Translations under genes and position numbers: made by a program
Part shown: positions 1 through 20,845 of the stretch, in pieces
Layout of the letters: each line of letters begins with the position of its first letter
How positions within the stretch are numbered: the first letter of the stretch is position 1
From: a virus
Length of the DNA stretch: 21,123 nucleotides
Virus record (IMG/VR): IMGVR_UViG_3300032046_000252
Coordinates: 1-21,123 of that record
Strand: one strand, 5' to 3'
Notes under the pieces: generated by a model
The model's database searches: none
What the model was told of the DNA's origin: nothing
What the model saw: only the letters and a program-made list of their open reading frames with translations

Positions 1-15
1 CGAGAAGTAAGTAGT

Positions 16-1332
16 ATGCCGTACATACCAGAGAATATAATAGTGGCATGGCCAGGGACTACGGTAGGACCATTCGGATGGTCTCGTGAGACCGCTCTGG
101 ACTCTAAGTACATCAAGGGATGGACGAACACTGTCGATCCAGGGACTTCTGGCGGAGCACTGACGCACAAGCACGCGACCGTTTCACACAGTCACACGGT
201 CAATCACACACACACGATTCCAGATAGTGGTACGGCTTCGACGAATAGTAATCGAGACATCAATACCACAAATCCTCTGCAGACGCACACGCACTTGAGC
301 AACGGCTCGACGGACAATCCTGAGGCGTCGTATGACTTGGCAGCCGCGACTCCCGACACATCGACGGACAATAATGAGCCAGCGTGTTTTGATGTCATAT
401 ACCTAAAGTCTGGTGGTGCGGCTTTCGGGATACCGGATGGAGCAATCTGTCTATGGACATACTCTACTACAGCAGTCCCGAGCGGTTGGCAGCTATGCAA
501 CGGTAGTGGTGGTGCTGTAGATTGCAGGAGTAGGTTCTTACGTGGAGCAGTTACTGCCGGAGACGGCGGAGGAACCGGAGGCAATGACGCTCACGTTCAT
601 ACTGTGGTGAATCACGATCATGGTGGGACAAGAAGTCACGTACACCCTACGATGGCATCTTCGACTACCGCCGCAGGGTTCAATACGGCAGGCAGCATCA
701 GTGGTACTACGGCCTTCGTGGCGACCTCGTCCCACACACACACGCTGACATTCGGATCGACCTCTCCTGTGGTCAGCAACCAGAGTGCGGCGGACGATCT
801 GTCGTCAGAGGCGAACATACCTCCGTATACGACGGTAGGTTTTATCCAGAATGTGTCTGGCTCAGTGAGCACGCCGGACCGGATCATTTGTCTATGGATC
901 GGCACGCTGGCGACGATCCCGACGAATTGGTACAAGTGCGATGGCACAAACGGCACGATGGACCTCCGCGATATGTACCCACGATGCTGTGCGACTCTCG
1001 CAGGTATCGGAGGAACAGGTGGGACCCTAACGCACACACACACGGCAGAAGGTCATACGCATCCAGTTGCAGCACATACGCATACGGTGACCGCAGGGGT
1101 CGGCGCGAATGCGAGCAGGACCGCAGGTGCCGTAGTCACTGCTGCGAGCAGTCACGTCCATACGTTCGCAGCGACTGGCTCCAGTAGTTTCACGAGCGGA
1201 TCGACAACGCCAACGGTCAGTAATTATACAGTTACGCAACCTCCGTACTATCAGGTTTGCTTCGTGGAGTATCATGAGCCAGCCAGTGGTAATCGACGAC
1301 GTCGTATTTTGATCTGTGGAGGTTCTCGATAA
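16..1332 (+). CDS. Tail fiber/collar-type protein with three HxH modules
   Basis: This is probably a trimeric receptor-binding or short fiber protein. Three successive modules can be seen. Two have the tail-collar signature, a Leu-Trp strand followed by P-x-GW-x-x-C-[ND]-G: residues about 144-164 (VPSGWQLCNG) and 291-311 (IPTNWYKCDG). The first is a divergent version near residues 8-36 (AWPG, FGW). Each is followed by a Gly-rich turn and HxH pairs at residues 51, 58, 64, 91; 193, 200, 208, 240; and 340, 347, 354, 380. In T4 gp12 and gp37, HxH motifs of trimers bind a metal ion on the axis; the same role here is inferred. The C-terminus has an Arg run (residues 427-430). ATG at 16 has a weak GAGAAG at 2-7. 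The frame is open to base 1, so the gene might begin upstream of the window. It overlaps the next gene by 1 nt (TAATG). Confidence 0.75.
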   Translation: MPYIPENIIVAWPGTTVGPFGWSRETALDSKYIKGWTNTVDPGTSGGALTHKHATVSHSHTVNHTHTIPDSGTASTNSNRDINTTNPLQTHTHLSNGSTDNPEASYDLAAATPDTSTDNNEPACFDVIYLKSGGAAFGIPDGAICLWTYSTTAVPSGWQLCNGSGGAVDCRSRFLRGAVTAGDGGGTGGNDAHVHTVVNHDHGGTRSHVHPTMASSTTAAGFNTAGSISGTTAFVATSSHTHTLTFGSTSPVVSNQSAADDLSSEANIPPYTTVGFIQNVSGSVSTPDRIICLWIGTLATIPTNWYKCDGTNGTMDLRDMYPRCCATLAGIGGTGGTLTHTHTAEGHTHPVAAHTHTVTAGVGANASRTAGAVVTAASSHVHTFAATGSSSFTSGSTTPTVSNYTVTQPPYYQVCFVEYHEPASGNRRRRILICGGSR

Positions 1333-3242
1333 TGCTAGCTAAACAGTCAACTGCTCGCACCTTCTTGCTCGGTCCGATCCTCGACTCTGCTGGAGCCGCG
1401 AAGACCGACGAGGTCGTCGCCTCCATCAAGGTCACGAAGAACGGAACTGTTGGAGCCGTGGATGCTCAGGACACGCTGACCCATAATCATACTGGACACT
1501 ATGTATTCGTCTCGGATGGAGGCGACTTCGACACGCTGGGAGAAGTCATATTCTCGTTGAACAGCGGGACGAATGCAATGGCTCCAGTCGTATTCCAAGT
1601 AGTCACTGCGAACGTGTACGATTCGTTCTGTTCAACTGACCTATTGGATGTGAGTCTGACGCAGTTGCTTGGTACGGCCTTATCGGAGAGTGCAGGGACT
1701 GGGAAACTCGCAGGAGCACTTGTCAAACTACTGAACGTCGCCACTCCGACAGGAACAGTGAATTCGCTTCCAGATGCTGTGGCTGGTGCAGCCAATGGAC
1801 TACTTGTCAGTGGAGCGAATGCGGGAACTACAACATTAGGTGCATTGGCGGTCACAGGAACTACGACGCTGAGCGGAGTAGTCTCCGCACCTGCAGCAAA
1901 CTCTATCGCAGGGACTTTAGCAACAGTAACGAATCTCACCAATGCTCCGACAAATGGCGATCTCACAGCCACTATGAAGACGTCGGTCAACACTGAAGCA
2001 GACACGGCTCTGTCGGATATCAAGCTCGACCATCTGATCGCTGTAGCTGAGTCGGGTGATGTGGTGAACTCCTCGATCATTGCCAAGATAGCAAGCAAGT
2101 CGGCGACACCCGCTTTCTCATCGTACAATAACACCACTGATTCAATGGAAGCTCAAGCTGATGTCTTGATCGACATTCATGGTACTGATCTTCCGGCTGT
2201 AAAGACAGACACTGCAGCAATCAAACTGAAGACCGATCTCATTCCTGCAATTCCTGCATCGCAAGGAGATGTGACTGCGGTCGGTACCGTAGTAAGTAAT
2301 ATACATGATACCGATCTTCCGGCTGTAAAGACAGACACTGCAGCAATCAAACTGAAGACCGATCTCATTCCTGCAATTCCTGCATCGCAAGGAGATGTGA
2401 CGTCTGTCGGATCGCTTGTTACGACCGTGGACGGAGTAGTAGACGCTATCAAGCTGAAGACAGATCTCATTCCAGCCATTCCTGCGTCGCGAGGAGACGT
2501 CACGACAGTAGGCGATCTTGTTACTGCTGTCGGAAGTCTTGTCACTACTGTCGATGGTGTAGTCGACACAATCAAGGTTACGGCTGACAAGCTAGATACA
2601 GCACTGGTACTGGACGGTGCTGTCTACAAGTACACTGCAAATGCATTAGAAGACGCTCCATCTGGAGGATTGACTCAGCAGCAAGTACGTGATGCAATGA
2701 GACTTGACTCGACATTGCATACTGTACCTCCAGACGGGTCAATTGACCATAAACTCGATACGATACCTGCTGATACCATCGCACTTATGGAGACATTACC
2801 TGTGCCTACCATTGTGATAGATCCAACAGTTAGTGTGACTACACTACAAGATGAGACTACGCATGTCTCTGTCGAACAATTAGCAGGTCGACCGAACGTT
2901 ATCTTCAATGTCAAAGTTCGTGACTCTGAGGGTGTTCTGACCGATTACGACCTTTCAGGAAAGGTGGTCAAGCTCGTGATCTACTCAGAAGATCGCGAGA
3001 CAAGTGAGAAGACTTGCTTGCTGCAAGATCAATCAGATGAGGTGGGCTCAGACCTGACAGTCGGTAGTCATAGTATCGAACTCTCACTTGTAGATGTACC
3101 TGCTGTGACTGCAAATGCTGGAAACTACAAGTGGACCCTCTGGGAGATCAACGCGGTGACGGGTGATCTGTCTCTCGGCACAGGAGACTGGTTCGTGAAT
3201 GAGAACTATAAAGGATCGGGTCTCGTAGGAGAAGAAGGATGA
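1332..3242 (+). CDS. Tail fiber/baseplate-upper-like protein with stalk repeats
   Basis: A 636-aa virion protein, probably a fiber or baseplate appendage. The N-terminal part (residues 1-110) is a beta-rich domain ending in VYDSF, a layout I associate with phage appendage proteins of unknown function. The middle is low-complexity, Ala/Thr/Gly-rich (about 110-280). Residues 286-430 carry a stalk of repeats built on a DLPAVKTDTAAIKLKTDLIP unit: two are identical at DNA level and one is degenerate. The Asp/Val/Ile spacing suggests a trimeric coiled coil. The C-terminus (about 505-630), with YDLSGKVVKLVIYSEDRET and YKWTLWEI, resembles the BppU N-terminal fold (PF10651) of lactococcal phage baseplates. 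The ATG overlaps the previous stop by 1 nt and has GGAGG at 1318-1322. The tail-protein assignment is firm in kind, not in exact role. Confidence 0.65.
   Translation: MLAKQSTARTFLLGPILDSAGAAKTDEVVASIKVTKNGTVGAVDAQDTLTHNHTGHYVFVSDGGDFDTLGEVIFSLNSGTNAMAPVVFQVVTANVYDSFCSTDLLDVSLTQLLGTALSESAGTGKLAGALVKLLNVATPTGTVNSLPDAVAGAANGLLVSGANAGTTTLGALAVTGTTTLSGVVSAPAANSIAGTLATVTNLTNAPTNGDLTATMKTSVNTEADTALSDIKLDHLIAVAESGDVVNSSIIAKIASKSATPAFSSYNNTTDSMEAQADVLIDIHGTDLPAVKTDTAAIKLKTDLIPAIPASQGDVTAVGTVVSNIHDTDLPAVKTDTAAIKLKTDLIPAIPASQGDVTSVGSLVTTVDGVVDAIKLKTDLIPAIPASRGDVTTVGDLVTAVGSLVTTVDGVVDTIKVTADKLDTALVLDGAVYKYTANALEDAPSGGLTQQQVRDAMRLDSTLHTVPPDGSIDHKLDTIPADTIALMETLPVPTIVIDPTVSVTTLQDETTHVSVEQLAGRPNVIFNVKVRDSEGVLTDYDLSGKVVKLVIYSEDRETSEKTCLLQDQSDEVGSDLTVGSHSIELSLVDVPAVTANAGNYKWTLWEINAVTGDLSLGTGDWFVNENYKGSGLVGEEG
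2187..2275 (+). repeat. 89-bp perfect direct repeat, copy 1
   Basis: Bases 2187-2275 are identical to 2313-2401, offset 126 nt (42 codons), inside the fiber stalk. A frame-preserving unequal duplication explains this. The lack of any synonymous difference argues that it is recent or maintained by recombination. Confidence 0.95.
2313..2401 (+). repeat. 89-bp perfect direct repeat, copy 2
   Basis: Second exact copy of the 2187-2275 unit. The 37 bases between the copies encode a variable linker (AVGTVVSNIHDT type). Confidence 0.95.
2445..2503 (+). repeat. Degenerate third copy of the stalk repeat
   Basis: 59 nt that align without gaps to the last 59 nt of the 89-bp repeat, with scattered mostly third-position changes. 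It encodes AIKLKTDLIPAIPASRGDVT, with Arg in place of Gln. An older duplication of the same unit. Confidence 0.85.
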
Positions 3243-15869: not shown

Positions 15870-16751
15870 ATGGCTGATGCAATCGGTGATTTCACCTACC
15901 AAGTACTCGCAATGGAAAGTGCTGATATGTCCATCACTTTCGATGCACAAGCTGAAGCTGAGATACACTATAAGGTCGCATGGACTGACAGTATTCCTTT
16001 CATGGCCGCATTGCTCGGATTACCACCTCCACCTTACACAGGCAGTGCGAGAGAGCCTCATGCTCATCCAGAACTTGCACCCTTAAAGTGCTTAGCATGT
16101 AAACGAACAAGACATGGTAAGTTTTCACAGGTCGGTGGATCTAAGTTTCCATCCTGGCCATTTGCACGTATCATTGCGAGTTATGGAGTACCTCAGTACG
16201 ATGTACGTTTGGATCAACCAGCCACTCCAGATATGCCATTCGGAAGTTGGTGTCAAGAGTCACGAGATCATGGGGTCGAATTCCTTGTGGGAGGATCCGG
16301 TAGCTACCTTTGGCAAATGGATATCGATCATGGTATCGAACCCGTAGGTGAGGTCAAAGAACCGATCGGTATACAGATCCCATTTGTTGAGCGTAACTAC
16401 AATATAAAACGATGCCTTTATATAGACTTGAAGGCTATCGACGCATTGACTGGTTACGTCAATACGAACACGTGGGCTCTTGCAGATCCAGGTTGCTTGC
16501 TATTCCTGGGTGTGAGTATTGACCGAACATTGAATGTGTACGGCTCTGGAGTACCATTCGAGGTGACCCTAAAGTTCAAAGAACGTTTCTACCCATGGAA
16601 TTACTTCTACCGTCCAGATACGATCTTCAGGACCGGATCGCCACCTAATGACGAACCGATCTTATGGCAAGAAGTCAATCCTCACCCTTACCCAGATGCG
16701 GATTTTGCTACGGAAGTATTCAACTCTTCATTCTTGGTGCTAGCGCGATGA
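15870..16751 (+). CDS. Tail-tip protein, possibly distal tail (Dit)-like
   Basis: A 293-aa protein straight after the tape measure, where the distal tail protein or its partner is normally encoded. It is rich in Trp, Tyr and Pro, with a CLACKRTRHGKF segment (two Cys, about residue 74-85), GVPQYDVRLDQPATPDMPFG and a late block PWNYFYRPDTIFR. The N-terminal third is strand-rich (MSITFDAQAEAEIHYKVAW). I do not recognise a family signature, so the Dit role is inferred from position and size only. TTAGGAG overlaps the previous stop codon. The 3' end overlaps the next gene by 4 nt (ATGA). Confidence 0.55.
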   Translation: MADAIGDFTYQVLAMESADMSITFDAQAEAEIHYKVAWTDSIPFMAALLGLPPPPYTGSAREPHAHPELAPLKCLACKRTRHGKFSQVGGSKFPSWPFARIIASYGVPQYDVRLDQPATPDMPFGSWCQESRDHGVEFLVGGSGSYLWQMDIDHGIEPVGEVKEPIGIQIPFVERNYNIKRCLYIDLKAIDALTGYVNTNTWALADPGCLLFLGVSIDRTLNVYGSGVPFEVTLKFKERFYPWNYFYRPDTIFRTGSPPNDEPILWQEVNPHPYPDADFATEVFNSSFLVLAR

Positions 16752-19700
16752 TAGAAAACACAAATCTCGGTCTTGTCAAAGAACTCGTCCCTGGTCAACA
16801 ACAGATCTCAGCTTCACAATACAATACTGTATTAAAGTTTGTAAAGAAGTTGAGAACTCAGAATCCTAGTAGTGGATTGTCAGGAGGGACTATCGGCAGT
16901 GAAGGAGTCAGTGTAAGGGGTTCTGTTCCAATTGAAACTTGGATTGGGGTCATCAAAGATACAGGATATCCCATTGACCCAGAAGCTCCCGAGTGGATTG
17001 GAGTACCTCCAGAAGACATACCCGAAGCTGAAGAGGATTTGGAAGGACCTCTCTATTGGGTCTGGAAAGCAAAGCGTACCAATCCTTCATCAGACACATT
17101 GCTTCATCCACCTATCTATGAAGCAATTGAAGAAGAAGATCCCGGACATCAGATCGTAATTGCATTCAACTACAGTGAACTCGATACTGGACTGCACGGG
17201 TTAGCAACTGACGGTACAGTCGTAGTACGTGTCACAGGAATGTGGATACCCAGCGTCCAAGATGGACAAGTTCAAGCTCCATTACGTGTGTATTGGTTCG
17301 AGCGATACAAGGGGTACATGGATGCATTGATTGTCGCAGAAGGTCCGGAAGGTGAAGATGATTTCCTAGACAATAGATATTGGGCAGTCAAAGCAAAATG
17401 CACCAATGAGGATGAGACTGAAGCCGAGACGCTTGAAGCGGTTGAGGAAGCTGTACCGTTCATGATCACCAATCGGCTCGAGGCATTGTCTAAGACGCAC
17501 TACCTGCGTGTCGATCAACCCATCACCGTACTGGGTGAGAGTGATGAAACCGATCCAGCAATACAGCGTTTCTTCACTTGTGCAATGCCTTGGCTCGTAC
17601 TATTCTTCTTAGGTTGTTGTGCGAGTTCATCGGGTTCATTGCTTCTGACTGCGAGTGCGATGGCTTGGCGTGGGAATTATTTCGAACGCTACATTAGCGA
17701 ACCTGCCGATATCGGAGGAACATTCTATGGATTCGCTTGGTACAAAGGACAGCTCTACGGTATTGCGGATACGCTCACCCTAGCGGATTCATCGACTGCG
17801 ATCGTGGTGCGGTATGATTTCGACAGTCGAAAATGGGTATCGGTTGATGGAGTCTACGGTAGTGGCGGTCACAATATCTATTATGGCTTAGCAATTCTAG
17901 TCTGGGATGACAAACTCATCATCGCAGGAGGATACAATGTAGAACCGACCATGACAGTATGGTCGTATGACGGCAATGAAGACGGTGATTGGGAGTTGTT
18001 AGAGTTACCAGAGTCAATGAACGTTTATTGCCTCGCGGAGTATGGTGGTGACCTGTACGCGGGAGGACAAGTTGGATTAGGATCTGATACAGGAATCTAT
18101 CGACTACCACATGGAAGTAGTACATGGGAGGTTCCTGGAGGCGGTCTGTCAGCTGATCCGTATGGAACTTGCATTGTCTACGGTCTCTGTGTGTTCAATG
18201 ATGGGACCAATGAACTTCTAATTATATGCGGACAGTTTGGTACTGGTTCCTGGAGAAATGTCACATCGTTTGATGGAACCGATTTGGCAGCAATTGGAAC
18301 TGGTCTAGAAGCGGCTATGATATATGCGGTATGTCAATTCGAGGACGACGAAGGTATCGGATTGTACGCAGGCGGTCGAAATCTGGCGGTAGGAAATCCT
18401 TTAGCTCGCTGGGATGGATACCTATGGCGACCAGCAGGTGAGACGCTCGCAATACTAAACCCACTGGTATACGAGGCACTGGAAGTCACCTCATTGAAAG
18501 TGTTCAGGCATGAACTACTCGTCGGAGGATGCTTTCATGCCGTAGACATTCCGACTGGACAAGTTGACCTCAACCATATCGCGAGGTACATCTCCGGTAC
18601 TGACAGCTTCACTGGAGTGGTCAAGCTCAACGGTTCCCCATTGGTCATCTACCCTTGGACCAGCGGTCTTTTGATTGGAGGTTCGTTTACCAAAGTCAAC
18701 AATGCAGAAGTACCGCGTCTATTCCAATTGATAGGTAGCACCGTCAATATGATTGGAAATGGTTATCCTTCTGCGGCAGTGCGATGTGCTGATCGCATTG
18801 TGTCAACCGAGCCAGAAATAGGAGGCGACTTCATATGGATTGGGGATGACCCTTGCACATATGCGGCTTACTTACAGCATGGATTCTGGTGGTCGAAAGG
18901 TGGATTCGATGGACCTGTCTACGCAATATATTACGATGCGACTGACGACTACATCCACTACTTCGGATCCTTCAATCAAGGTGGAGGTACCATTTCACCT
19001 TGCTGGGTCATGTTCGATCGTGCTACTCCAGGAACATGGAAGGACATGGTCGACTCCGCTGCCGGTAATCCGGTAATTCGTGCATGTTGTGCAGTCGGTC
19101 GGACACTTTACATTGTCGGAAAGTTCACCGAGTTAAATGGAGTAACATGCAACAACTGTGCGAAGATTGACCTAGACACCTTGGTAGTTTCAGCAATGGG
19201 TTCTGGTTGTCTAGGTGAACTCTATTCGATCACGTATTACGATAGCAAGATCGTGGTCGGTGGGTGGATCACACATGTCAATGGAGTATCGACAGTCCAG
19301 CAGATTGCAGCTTGGAACGAAGCAACTGATACATGGACTATCTATACTTCAATGGCAGGCTTTGCTGGACCTGTGTATGCGTTGGCCACGTGGATGAATG
19401 AAGCAACCGAAACGTTGCTTGCAGGTGTCTATGGGAAACCAGCTGGAATGGTTGCTCGGCATCAGCATCTTCTTCGTGCACTGCCGGCAGGAGGTTCTTG
19501 GAGCACGCTCGCTGTAGAATTGAATGACACGATTAGAGTCATCGCGATGGACACTGACGGTACTCCAATCATCGGAGGCGACTTCGACCAGATGGGGACA
19601 TCGACTGGAACATTTCACAAGTGGGCAATGTGCTTCATAGCGTACAAGAACAGACGCTTCAGGATGCTCGGAGGTGGGGTCGGTCACATGCCGAATACTG

Positions 19701-20845
19701 GACCATTGCAGTTGTCCAGTGGTCGAGTGGTCTCAATAACAGTGCTACCGCGAGACGCTCACTACAAGACCGAAGAGGTGCTGCTTGGTACCATAGGAGG
19801 TGCACCTGGTTCATTCTGCTATTCTCCAGGAATTGGAATGCTGACAATTCGTGGATGGCGTCCGGTCCAAGGCGGACTCTATTGGAGTTTGACTTCTCCT
19901 GTATGGGCATACGGAGCATATGCACTATTACAAGAAGGTACCGCAGGAGGGGTGATGATCGGAGGTAACTTTTCTGGTGGCTACAATGCAGTCATCGCTC
20001 CAGAAGATGCTGATACAGTCGACATGTTGATAGCATCTTCTGGTACGATTAGATACGACGGTCACTACTTCGTCCCGACAGGCGACTTCCCAGGTCGATG
20101 TGTCGGTCTAGCCAAGTATGGTGATGATGTGATCGGTATAGGATTGGATAATGCTCCGAGAGTCCACAACCCGGTAGGACTTTCATGGAGCGTATTATCG
20201 TCCGAGTTTGATGATAGCGGTGAATACCATCACATATGCGAGATGGGGACCAACCTATGGGTCTTTGGAATCTTCAGTATCAATGAAGGAGACGCTTGGC
20301 CGACTGTCGCATATTGGAATGGTGAGCATGTGATCGATGCCAGTCCAACTGATGTAACACGTGTAAATTTCGGATTGGTCGGTGATCTTGGTTTCGGTGA
20401 ATTTCTATATATCGGATGCGACAGTGCGTTAGACAATACAGTCAAAGTACGTTCTGGAGGATTGTGGGGAAATGTCGGTTCTGGTCTGACAGGTGAAGCA
20501 CGCCAACTTGTCATCATTGACTTTGGAGGTGATATTGGAAAGCGACTATTTGCATGCGGAGTACTAGAGGTCGGTGGTATCGATGCAGGTGTCGTGATGT
20601 TCGAAGATGGTGTATGGATCCCGATCATCCGTGAAGGAGGATTCGGACAGATCACCGCTATAATCGGTCCAACCGCATCTTGGCAACCGATCCGACTCAC
20701 AGTGACTGGCGATATAAATTCTGTGTATGATATCGTAAACGCTAGAACTGTCGTATGCTCTGGAGTAGCATTCTACCACCCAAGTCAAGGTGTCACCGCT
20801 GACTTCTGGGGTGGTGTCGCTGGACAGGGTTTCGACTTAGCGTGA
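16748..20845 (+). CDS. Giant propeller-repeat tail protein
   Basis: A 1365-aa protein coupled by ATGA overlap to the tail-tip gene. Residues 1-275 form an N-terminal domain with an internal duplication: YWVWKAKRTN (about 103) and YWAVKAKCTN (about 210) are each followed by an EA(I/V)EE stretch. Residues 280-307 are a hydrophobic, Cys-containing segment (PWLVLFFLGCCASSSGSLLL). From about 313 to the end the protein consists of some 18-20 blade-like repeats of the form L-strand, IGGSF or VGKF, a loop, xxRWDG or IAAWN, W, then VYALA (for example LLIGGSFTKVNN, YIVGKFTELNG, VVGGWITHVNG, IIGGDFDQMGT). This fits two or three beta-propellers. Probably a receptor-binding or central tail-tip protein. 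An ATG at 16664 opens the frame earlier but would overlap 88 nt of the neighbour, so it is rejected. Confidence 0.75.
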   Translation: MIENTNLGLVKELVPGQQQISASQYNTVLKFVKKLRTQNPSSGLSGGTIGSEGVSVRGSVPIETWIGVIKDTGYPIDPEAPEWIGVPPEDIPEAEEDLEGPLYWVWKAKRTNPSSDTLLHPPIYEAIEEEDPGHQIVIAFNYSELDTGLHGLATDGTVVVRVTGMWIPSVQDGQVQAPLRVYWFERYKGYMDALIVAEGPEGEDDFLDNRYWAVKAKCTNEDETEAETLEAVEEAVPFMITNRLEALSKTHYLRVDQPITVLGESDETDPAIQRFFTCAMPWLVLFFLGCCASSSGSLLLTASAMAWRGNYFERYISEPADIGGTFYGFAWYKGQLYGIADTLTLADSSTAIVVRYDFDSRKWVSVDGVYGSGGHNIYYGLAILVWDDKLIIAGGYNVEPTMTVWSYDGNEDGDWELLELPESMNVYCLAEYGGDLYAGGQVGLGSDTGIYRLPHGSSTWEVPGGGLSADPYGTCIVYGLCVFNDGTNELLIICGQFGTGSWRNVTSFDGTDLAAIGTGLEAAMIYAVCQFEDDEGIGLYAGGRNLAVGNPLARWDGYLWRPAGETLAILNPLVYEALEVTSLKVFRHELLVGGCFHAVDIPTGQVDLNHIARYISGTDSFTGVVKLNGSPLVIYPWTSGLLIGGSFTKVNNAEVPRLFQLIGSTVNMIGNGYPSAAVRCADRIVSTEPEIGGDFIWIGDDPCTYAAYLQHGFWWSKGGFDGPVYAIYYDATDDYIHYFGSFNQGGGTISPCWVMFDRATPGTWKDMVDSAAGNPVIRACCAVGRTLYIVGKFTELNGVTCNNCAKIDLDTLVVSAMGSGCLGELYSITYYDSKIVVGGWITHVNGVSTVQQIAAWNEATDTWTIYTSMAGFAGPVYALATWMNEATETLLAGVYGKPAGMVARHQHLLRALPAGGSWSTLAVELNDTIRVIAMDTDGTPIIGGDFDQMGTSTGTFHKWAMCFIAYKNRRFRMLGGGVGHMPNTGPLQLSSGRVVSITVLPRDAHYKTEEVLLGTIGGAPGSFCYSPGIGMLTIRGWRPVQGGLYWSLTSPVWAYGAYALLQEGTAGGVMIGGNFSGGYNAVIAPEDADTVDMLIASSGTIRYDGHYFVPTGDFPGRCVGLAKYGDDVIGIGLDNAPRVHNPVGLSWSVLSSEFDDSGEYHHICEMGTNLWVFGIFSINEGDAWPTVAYWNGEHVIDASPTDVTRVNFGLVGDLGFGEFLYIGCDSALDNTVKVRSGGLWGNVGSGLTGEARQLVIIDFGGDIGKRLFACGVLEVGGIDAGVVMFEDGVWIPIIREGGFGQITAIIGPTASWQPIRLTVTGDINSVYDIVNARTVVCSGVAFYHPSQGVTADFWGGVAGQGFDLA

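Follow-up and report, generated by a model that had tools for sequence, protein, structure and literature searches.

A three-module HxH collar protein in a virus contig as a probable single-chain counterpart of homotrimeric fibre tips

HxH motifs in phage fibre tips

To our knowledge, phage fibres have nearly always been described as trimers of identical chains. Within such fibres the HxH motif is a well-documented metal-binding feature, as the initial annotation of the DNA studied here had pointed out, and is established in gp37, gp12, gpV and the pyocin fibres. The known site is octahedral and lies on the fibre axis, with both histidines of one HxH motif supplied by each of three chains (T4 gp12, gp37, P2 gpV and R-pyocin fibres). 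In T4 gp37, the collar comprises residues 811-860 and 1016-1026, that is, both ends of the tip (PMC12724248).

The best annotated match to the protein described below is the adjacent pair Pas28 and Pas29 of the Actinoplanes phage phiAsp2 (34-39% identity, 39% to Pas28), which likewise carry three modules of four HxH motifs in the same order and with near-identical spacing. Pas28 and Pas29 are paralogues, and all 12 motifs are kept in both. They are far longer (1291 and 936 aa) owing to extra N- and C-terminal domains, whereas the protein studied here is a stand-alone three-module unit. For Pas29, the annotators of the phiAsp2 record note HXHY motifs and a possible role as receptor recognising protein; the record mentions neither three modules nor a pseudo-trimer. 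Outside phiAsp2, the whole architecture was found in none of 50,697 phage records, even with distant relatives as queries.

A collar gene at the edge of the contig

The window, meaning the whole stretch of DNA analysed (21,123 nucleotides, IMG/VR record IMGVR_UViG_3300032046_000252), is a 21-kb virus record in which profile matches identify terminase, portal, capsid and tape-measure genes; no near DNA match to it was found among phage records. The collar gene sits at its left edge and encodes 438 aa. The reading frame continues open for 5 codons 5' of the ATG, up to the contig edge, and the ATG at position 16 is likely the real start because stand-alone relatives have Met at the equivalent position in the alignment. 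The phrog_5795 "tail protein" profile matches residues 3-425 (E 6.9e-27), spanning all three modules, while Pfam Collar (PF07484) gives one match confined to residues 142-164 that falls below threshold (20.8 bits, cut-off 24). The features are as follows, the HxH levels being assigned by motif scan plus alignment.

16..1332, + strand: three-module HxH collar protein, predicted tail-tip or receptor-binding type, 438 aa (ORF list, phrog_5795, 39% identity to phiAsp2 Pas28)
34..423, + strand: module 1 (residues 7-136), with collar strand, four HxH, tip and closing collar strand (alignment, module tree, AF2 strands E8-12 and E124-132)
166..174, + strand: HxH level 1, module 1, HKH51-53
187..195, + strand: HxH level 2, module 1, HSH58-60
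205..213, + strand: HxH level 3, module 1, HTH64-66
286..294, + strand: HxH level 4, module 1, HTH91-93
424..867, + strand: module 2 (residues 137-284) (alignment, module tree, AF2 strands E144-147 and E271-279)
592..600, + strand: HxH level 1, module 2, HVH193-195
613..621, + strand: HxH level 2, module 2, HDH200-202
637..645, + strand: HxH level 3, module 2, HVH208-210
733..741, + strand: HxH level 4, module 2, HTH240-242
868..1278, + strand: module 3 (residues 285-421), matching collar fibres 6ov6, 9nxk and 1ocy (fold searches, AF2 strands E291-294 and E411-419)
1033..1041, + strand: HxH level 1, module 3, HTH340-342
1054..1062, + strand: HxH level 2, module 3, HTH347-349
1075..1083, + strand: HxH level 3, module 3, HTH354-356
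1153..1161, + strand: HxH level 4, module 3, HVH380-382

The motif scan confirms the twelve HxH motifs, four in each of three modules, that the initial annotation had reported, and places their first residues at 51, 58, 64, 91 / 193, 200, 208, 240 / 340, 347, 354, 380. Chance would give a mean of 1.36 motifs and a maximum of 7 (20,000 composition shuffles of the protein), 24 of its 25 His sit inside HxH motifs, and the other main ORFs of the window contain at most one motif each. Thr, Ser, Gly and His are abundant in the composition of the protein. The spacings by module are 7,6,27 / 7,8,32 / 7,7,26, so that the distance from the third to the fourth motif, first given as 27-32 residues, is in fact 26-32. 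The GW/CDG-type collar signature attributed to every module is present in module 2 (GWQLCNG) and module 3 (NWYKCDG), while module 1 has GW without CDG (GWSRETALD).

Elsewhere in the window, the next gene (1332-3242, 636 aa) is without a family match and contains a 110-nt direct repeat at 2175-2512, with two copies 95% identical, a third at 65%, and spacings of 126 and 102. Downstream of the tape measure gene, a 1393-aa protein (16664-20845) gives weak kelch/Rax2-like beta-propeller matches.

Constancy and descent of the modules

A search of viral contigs with the window protein alone gave no match, and alignment-based searches recovered many relatives. Patterns and queries were seeded from three-module proteins, largely from module-1 motifs, and may therefore enrich for three-module forms; under this sampling, 81 distinct relatives were aligned, and a count of HxH groups over all ORFs gave 92 complete ORFs with exactly three. 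Nearly all lower counts come from ORFs truncated by contig ends. In the two relatives with apparently higher counts (L014 and L028), three contiguous modules are still present and the extra HxH lie outside them; L028 (2808-7301) encodes a 1498-aa protein with three N-terminal modules and a further HxH cluster ~900 residues later, near the C-terminus. Single-module proteins (L122, L123 and L127) are separate, more distant collar proteins. One of them, the fibre protein of Prochlorococcus phage P-SSM2 (L122, 1936-3729), carries one collar module with six HxH, the ordinary single-module form, preceded by long collagen-like stretches of Gly-Pro repeats. The three-module unit itself occurs in several gene neighbourhoods, either stand-alone (about 430-480 aa) or embedded in proteins of 600-1800 aa.

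Most HxH His are invariant or nearly so across the 81-protein alignment, over a 25-50% identity range, and the motifs are by far its most conserved feature. Free loss of the motifs among relatives, which would have spoken against the metal-site idea of the initial annotation, is not what the alignment contains: all twelve are kept in 60 of the 81 distinct relatives and 9-11 in the remainder. In a tree of individual modules, first, second and third modules cluster by position, with 3 label changes against a minimum of 2 and none of 200 shuffles as low, which indicates that the triplication is old.

The search of genome contigs returned a single protein (L054, from 4491 onward), exceeding 2,000 aa and encoded on contig DDBW01000002.1, a Candidatus Dojkabacteria MAG. 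Its three short modules carry two HxH apiece, with the second motif of module 1 degenerate, and such a pattern implies that the number of levels changed in step across the three modules. No relatives of this protein were found among phages or viral contigs. Because it lies on a bacterial MAG contig, the three-module plan may occur also outside recognised phages.

Predicted structure of the chain

The AF2 monomer of the 438-aa chain (pLDDT 82.3, pTM 0.75) packs the modules compactly, a result to be read with the caveat that homotrimer-derived signals could make three homologous repeats pack together. In all three modules the collars are predicted with pLDDT 91-98 and the needle tips with low values (50-65). 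Each module starts and ends in collar strands, and the inter-module linkers are about 11 residues long. A Foldseek search against predicted viral structures matched the BFVD model of Pas29 (TM 0.75, rmsd 4.7 over 447 columns, 32% identity), the value for the Pas28 model being 0.58; the AF2 and Pas29 models agree, so two predictions from different alignments arrange the three modules alike.

When module 3 is modelled alone (pTM 0.52), strand 321-324 and the short bridges of the HxH stretch are lost, leaving 31 rather than 44 strand residues, and for this reason the strands of the HxH stretch appear, in the models, to pair with other modules in the whole chain. An alignment to 8on5_E, which has one collar domain, covers 74 residues at 2.9 A over a model range of 1..421, of which the row gives the first and last aligned residues only. 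This match hints that the first and last modules of the model close on each other, a ring being completed where the N-terminal strand of module 1 meets the end of module 3.

No PDB entry matched the complete model at E<=0.001 in a search in which homotrimer chains are listed singly and cannot reveal a pseudo-trimer; a further search returned only single-module matches and one short row. Module 3 by itself aligns with solved collar fibres, including 6ov6 (Z 5.6, 129 aligned, 6.6 A; Foldseek E 1.9e-4), T4 gp12 (1ocy, Z 4.8, 75 aligned, 4.1 A) and 8on5 (Z 4.8, 63 aligned, 3.0 A). At these modest Z scores, the link to T4 tail-fibre tips and their HxH metal sites suggested in the initial annotation finds support.

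Variation at the putative metal sites

In all 81 proteins, at least 4 of the six ligand positions of every level are His or Cys. In every member of one clade, level 2 reads HxP / HxH / CxP in modules 1 / 2 / 3. If the axis is shared, this level would plausibly be left with one Cys beside three His, a zinc-like tetrahedral set. The joint level-2 loss in modules 1 and 3, probably one event, is suggestive of a shared site, with which it fits well. Motif loss as a test of a shared axis is by itself not decisive, as a second clade shows single-ligand losses on two different levels: module 2 reads NxH at level 1 and module 3 reads [TAQ]xH at level 4, the first His being lost in each. Any metal bound by the 438-aa protein itself would probably be iron, as gp37 and the pyocin fibres suggest by analogy.

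A probable single-chain pseudo-trimer and its alternatives

The 438-aa protein is most likely a single-chain pseudo-trimer with four putative metal sites, in which we infer the threefold arrangement and the axis-facing His. It would correspond to the homotrimeric collar-plus-HxH tip of T4 gp37/gp12 with its three subunits fused into one chain and diverged. Each module would run from the collar along one arm down through HxH levels 1-3 to a variable tip, and back through level 4 to the collar, and the three modules would close round one pseudo-threefold axis. The three HxH motifs of any one level, each from a different module, would then form one six-His site, so that four putative metal sites per chain, probably occupied by iron, would lock the shaft and hold up three non-identical tips, presumably for receptor binding.

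The count follows from the known sites: since a site takes up three HxH motifs, one per chain, a single chain with twelve can complete four sites when its modules ring one axis, and twelve sites would arise only if three chains assembled in register. The latter arrangement, a homotrimer in which each of the serial modules builds its own trimeric HxH needle, underlies the earlier prediction of a stack of as many as twelve metal sites. It finds support in the conservation of all twelve motifs and in the solved HxH fibres of the surveyed literature, which are all homotrimers. However, every complete relative found has exactly three modules, although single-module proteins exist (L122 and L127), and the module lineages are position-specific; both facts favour the single-chain pseudo-trimer, as do the joint change in level count in L054, the strands lost along the HxH stretch when module 3 stands alone, and the AF2 monomer, which packs the modules and agrees with the independent Pas29 model. 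Topology points the same way: with both module ends in the collar and 11-residue linkers, the next module should lie beside the previous one and not beyond it, and the linkers are too short for three needles to line up end to end. The serial homotrimer is therefore unlikely and is rejected as the most likely reading on the grounds of constant module number, short linkers, compact monomer model and position-specific lineages. Evidence from module number, tree, level number, model and linkers all favours four sites, and the twelve-site needle is probably wrong.

Two further possibilities concern the histidines. They might be structural, engaged in hydrogen bonds and packing within a single-chain pseudo-trimer whose sites would be largely or wholly empty of metal in virus particles. 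This reading is quite unlikely, given that HxH is by far the best-conserved feature, that it binds iron or zinc in solved cases, and that even the HxP/HxH/CxP substitution leaves a plausible four-ligand set. A His-rich low-complexity repeat lacking a defined fold or site would suit the abundance of Thr, Ser, Gly and His, but is contradicted by the fixed spacing, the His invariant across 25-50% identity and the confident collars, which make it extremely improbable.

Beyond the individual protein, a fibre-tip family has probably fused and diverged three subunits into one chain. With the symmetry broken, each tip would be free to diverge from the others, and the ligands of a metal site could change to a mixed set, of which the three-His-one-Cys clade would be an example. 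If true, these proteins offer a natural example of an obligate homotrimer turned fused and asymmetric, in which every metal site and every tip can mutate separately, as well as a compact scaffold, monomeric and with some four metal sites in a stack, that lends itself to direct expression and measurement. The pseudo-trimer reading would also correct a threefold overcount of metal sites derived from per-chain HxH counts, which bears on estimates of phage-carried iron.

Comparison with known systems

The window protein shares with Pas28/Pas29-type proteins (phrog_5795) a profile match over all modules and exactly three modules with HxH levels in register. With the T4 gp37 tip and gp12 receptor-binding domain it has in common the HxH motifs of the shaft, a predicted collar at either end of the tip and, presumably, axial HxH metal sites, and it may work like these tips. 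T4 gp37/gp12 has one module per chain in three identical chains, whereas here three diverged modules occupy one chain and there are probably no three separate chains. The literature accessible to the search yielded no comparable fibre tip made of a single chain or with pseudo-threefold symmetry; as far as this search shows, a single-chain three-module metal-threaded tip would be an undescribed fibre-tip design.

Partial parallels exist in other phages. The tail fibre of Alteromonas phage R22Y likewise contains several HxH motifs predicted to bind iron, but with six motifs per chain in a predicted homotrimer (PMC11705849). In mycobacteriophage Mysterious, gp35, gp36 and gp37 form a trimeric baseplate element from three different polypeptides, though these are products of separate genes, and histidine, metal and collar are unmentioned (PMC13252515). 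In the DSLV2 virophage, three neighbouring genes encode different collar (PF07484) proteins that combine in a 1:1:1 heterotrimer resembling gp37; neither histidine nor iron occurs as a word in the main text of that paper, and HxH sites are not discussed (PMC12724248). DSLV2 represents the nearest unfused analogue of the window protein, with three genes there corresponding to one fused chain here (PMC12724248).
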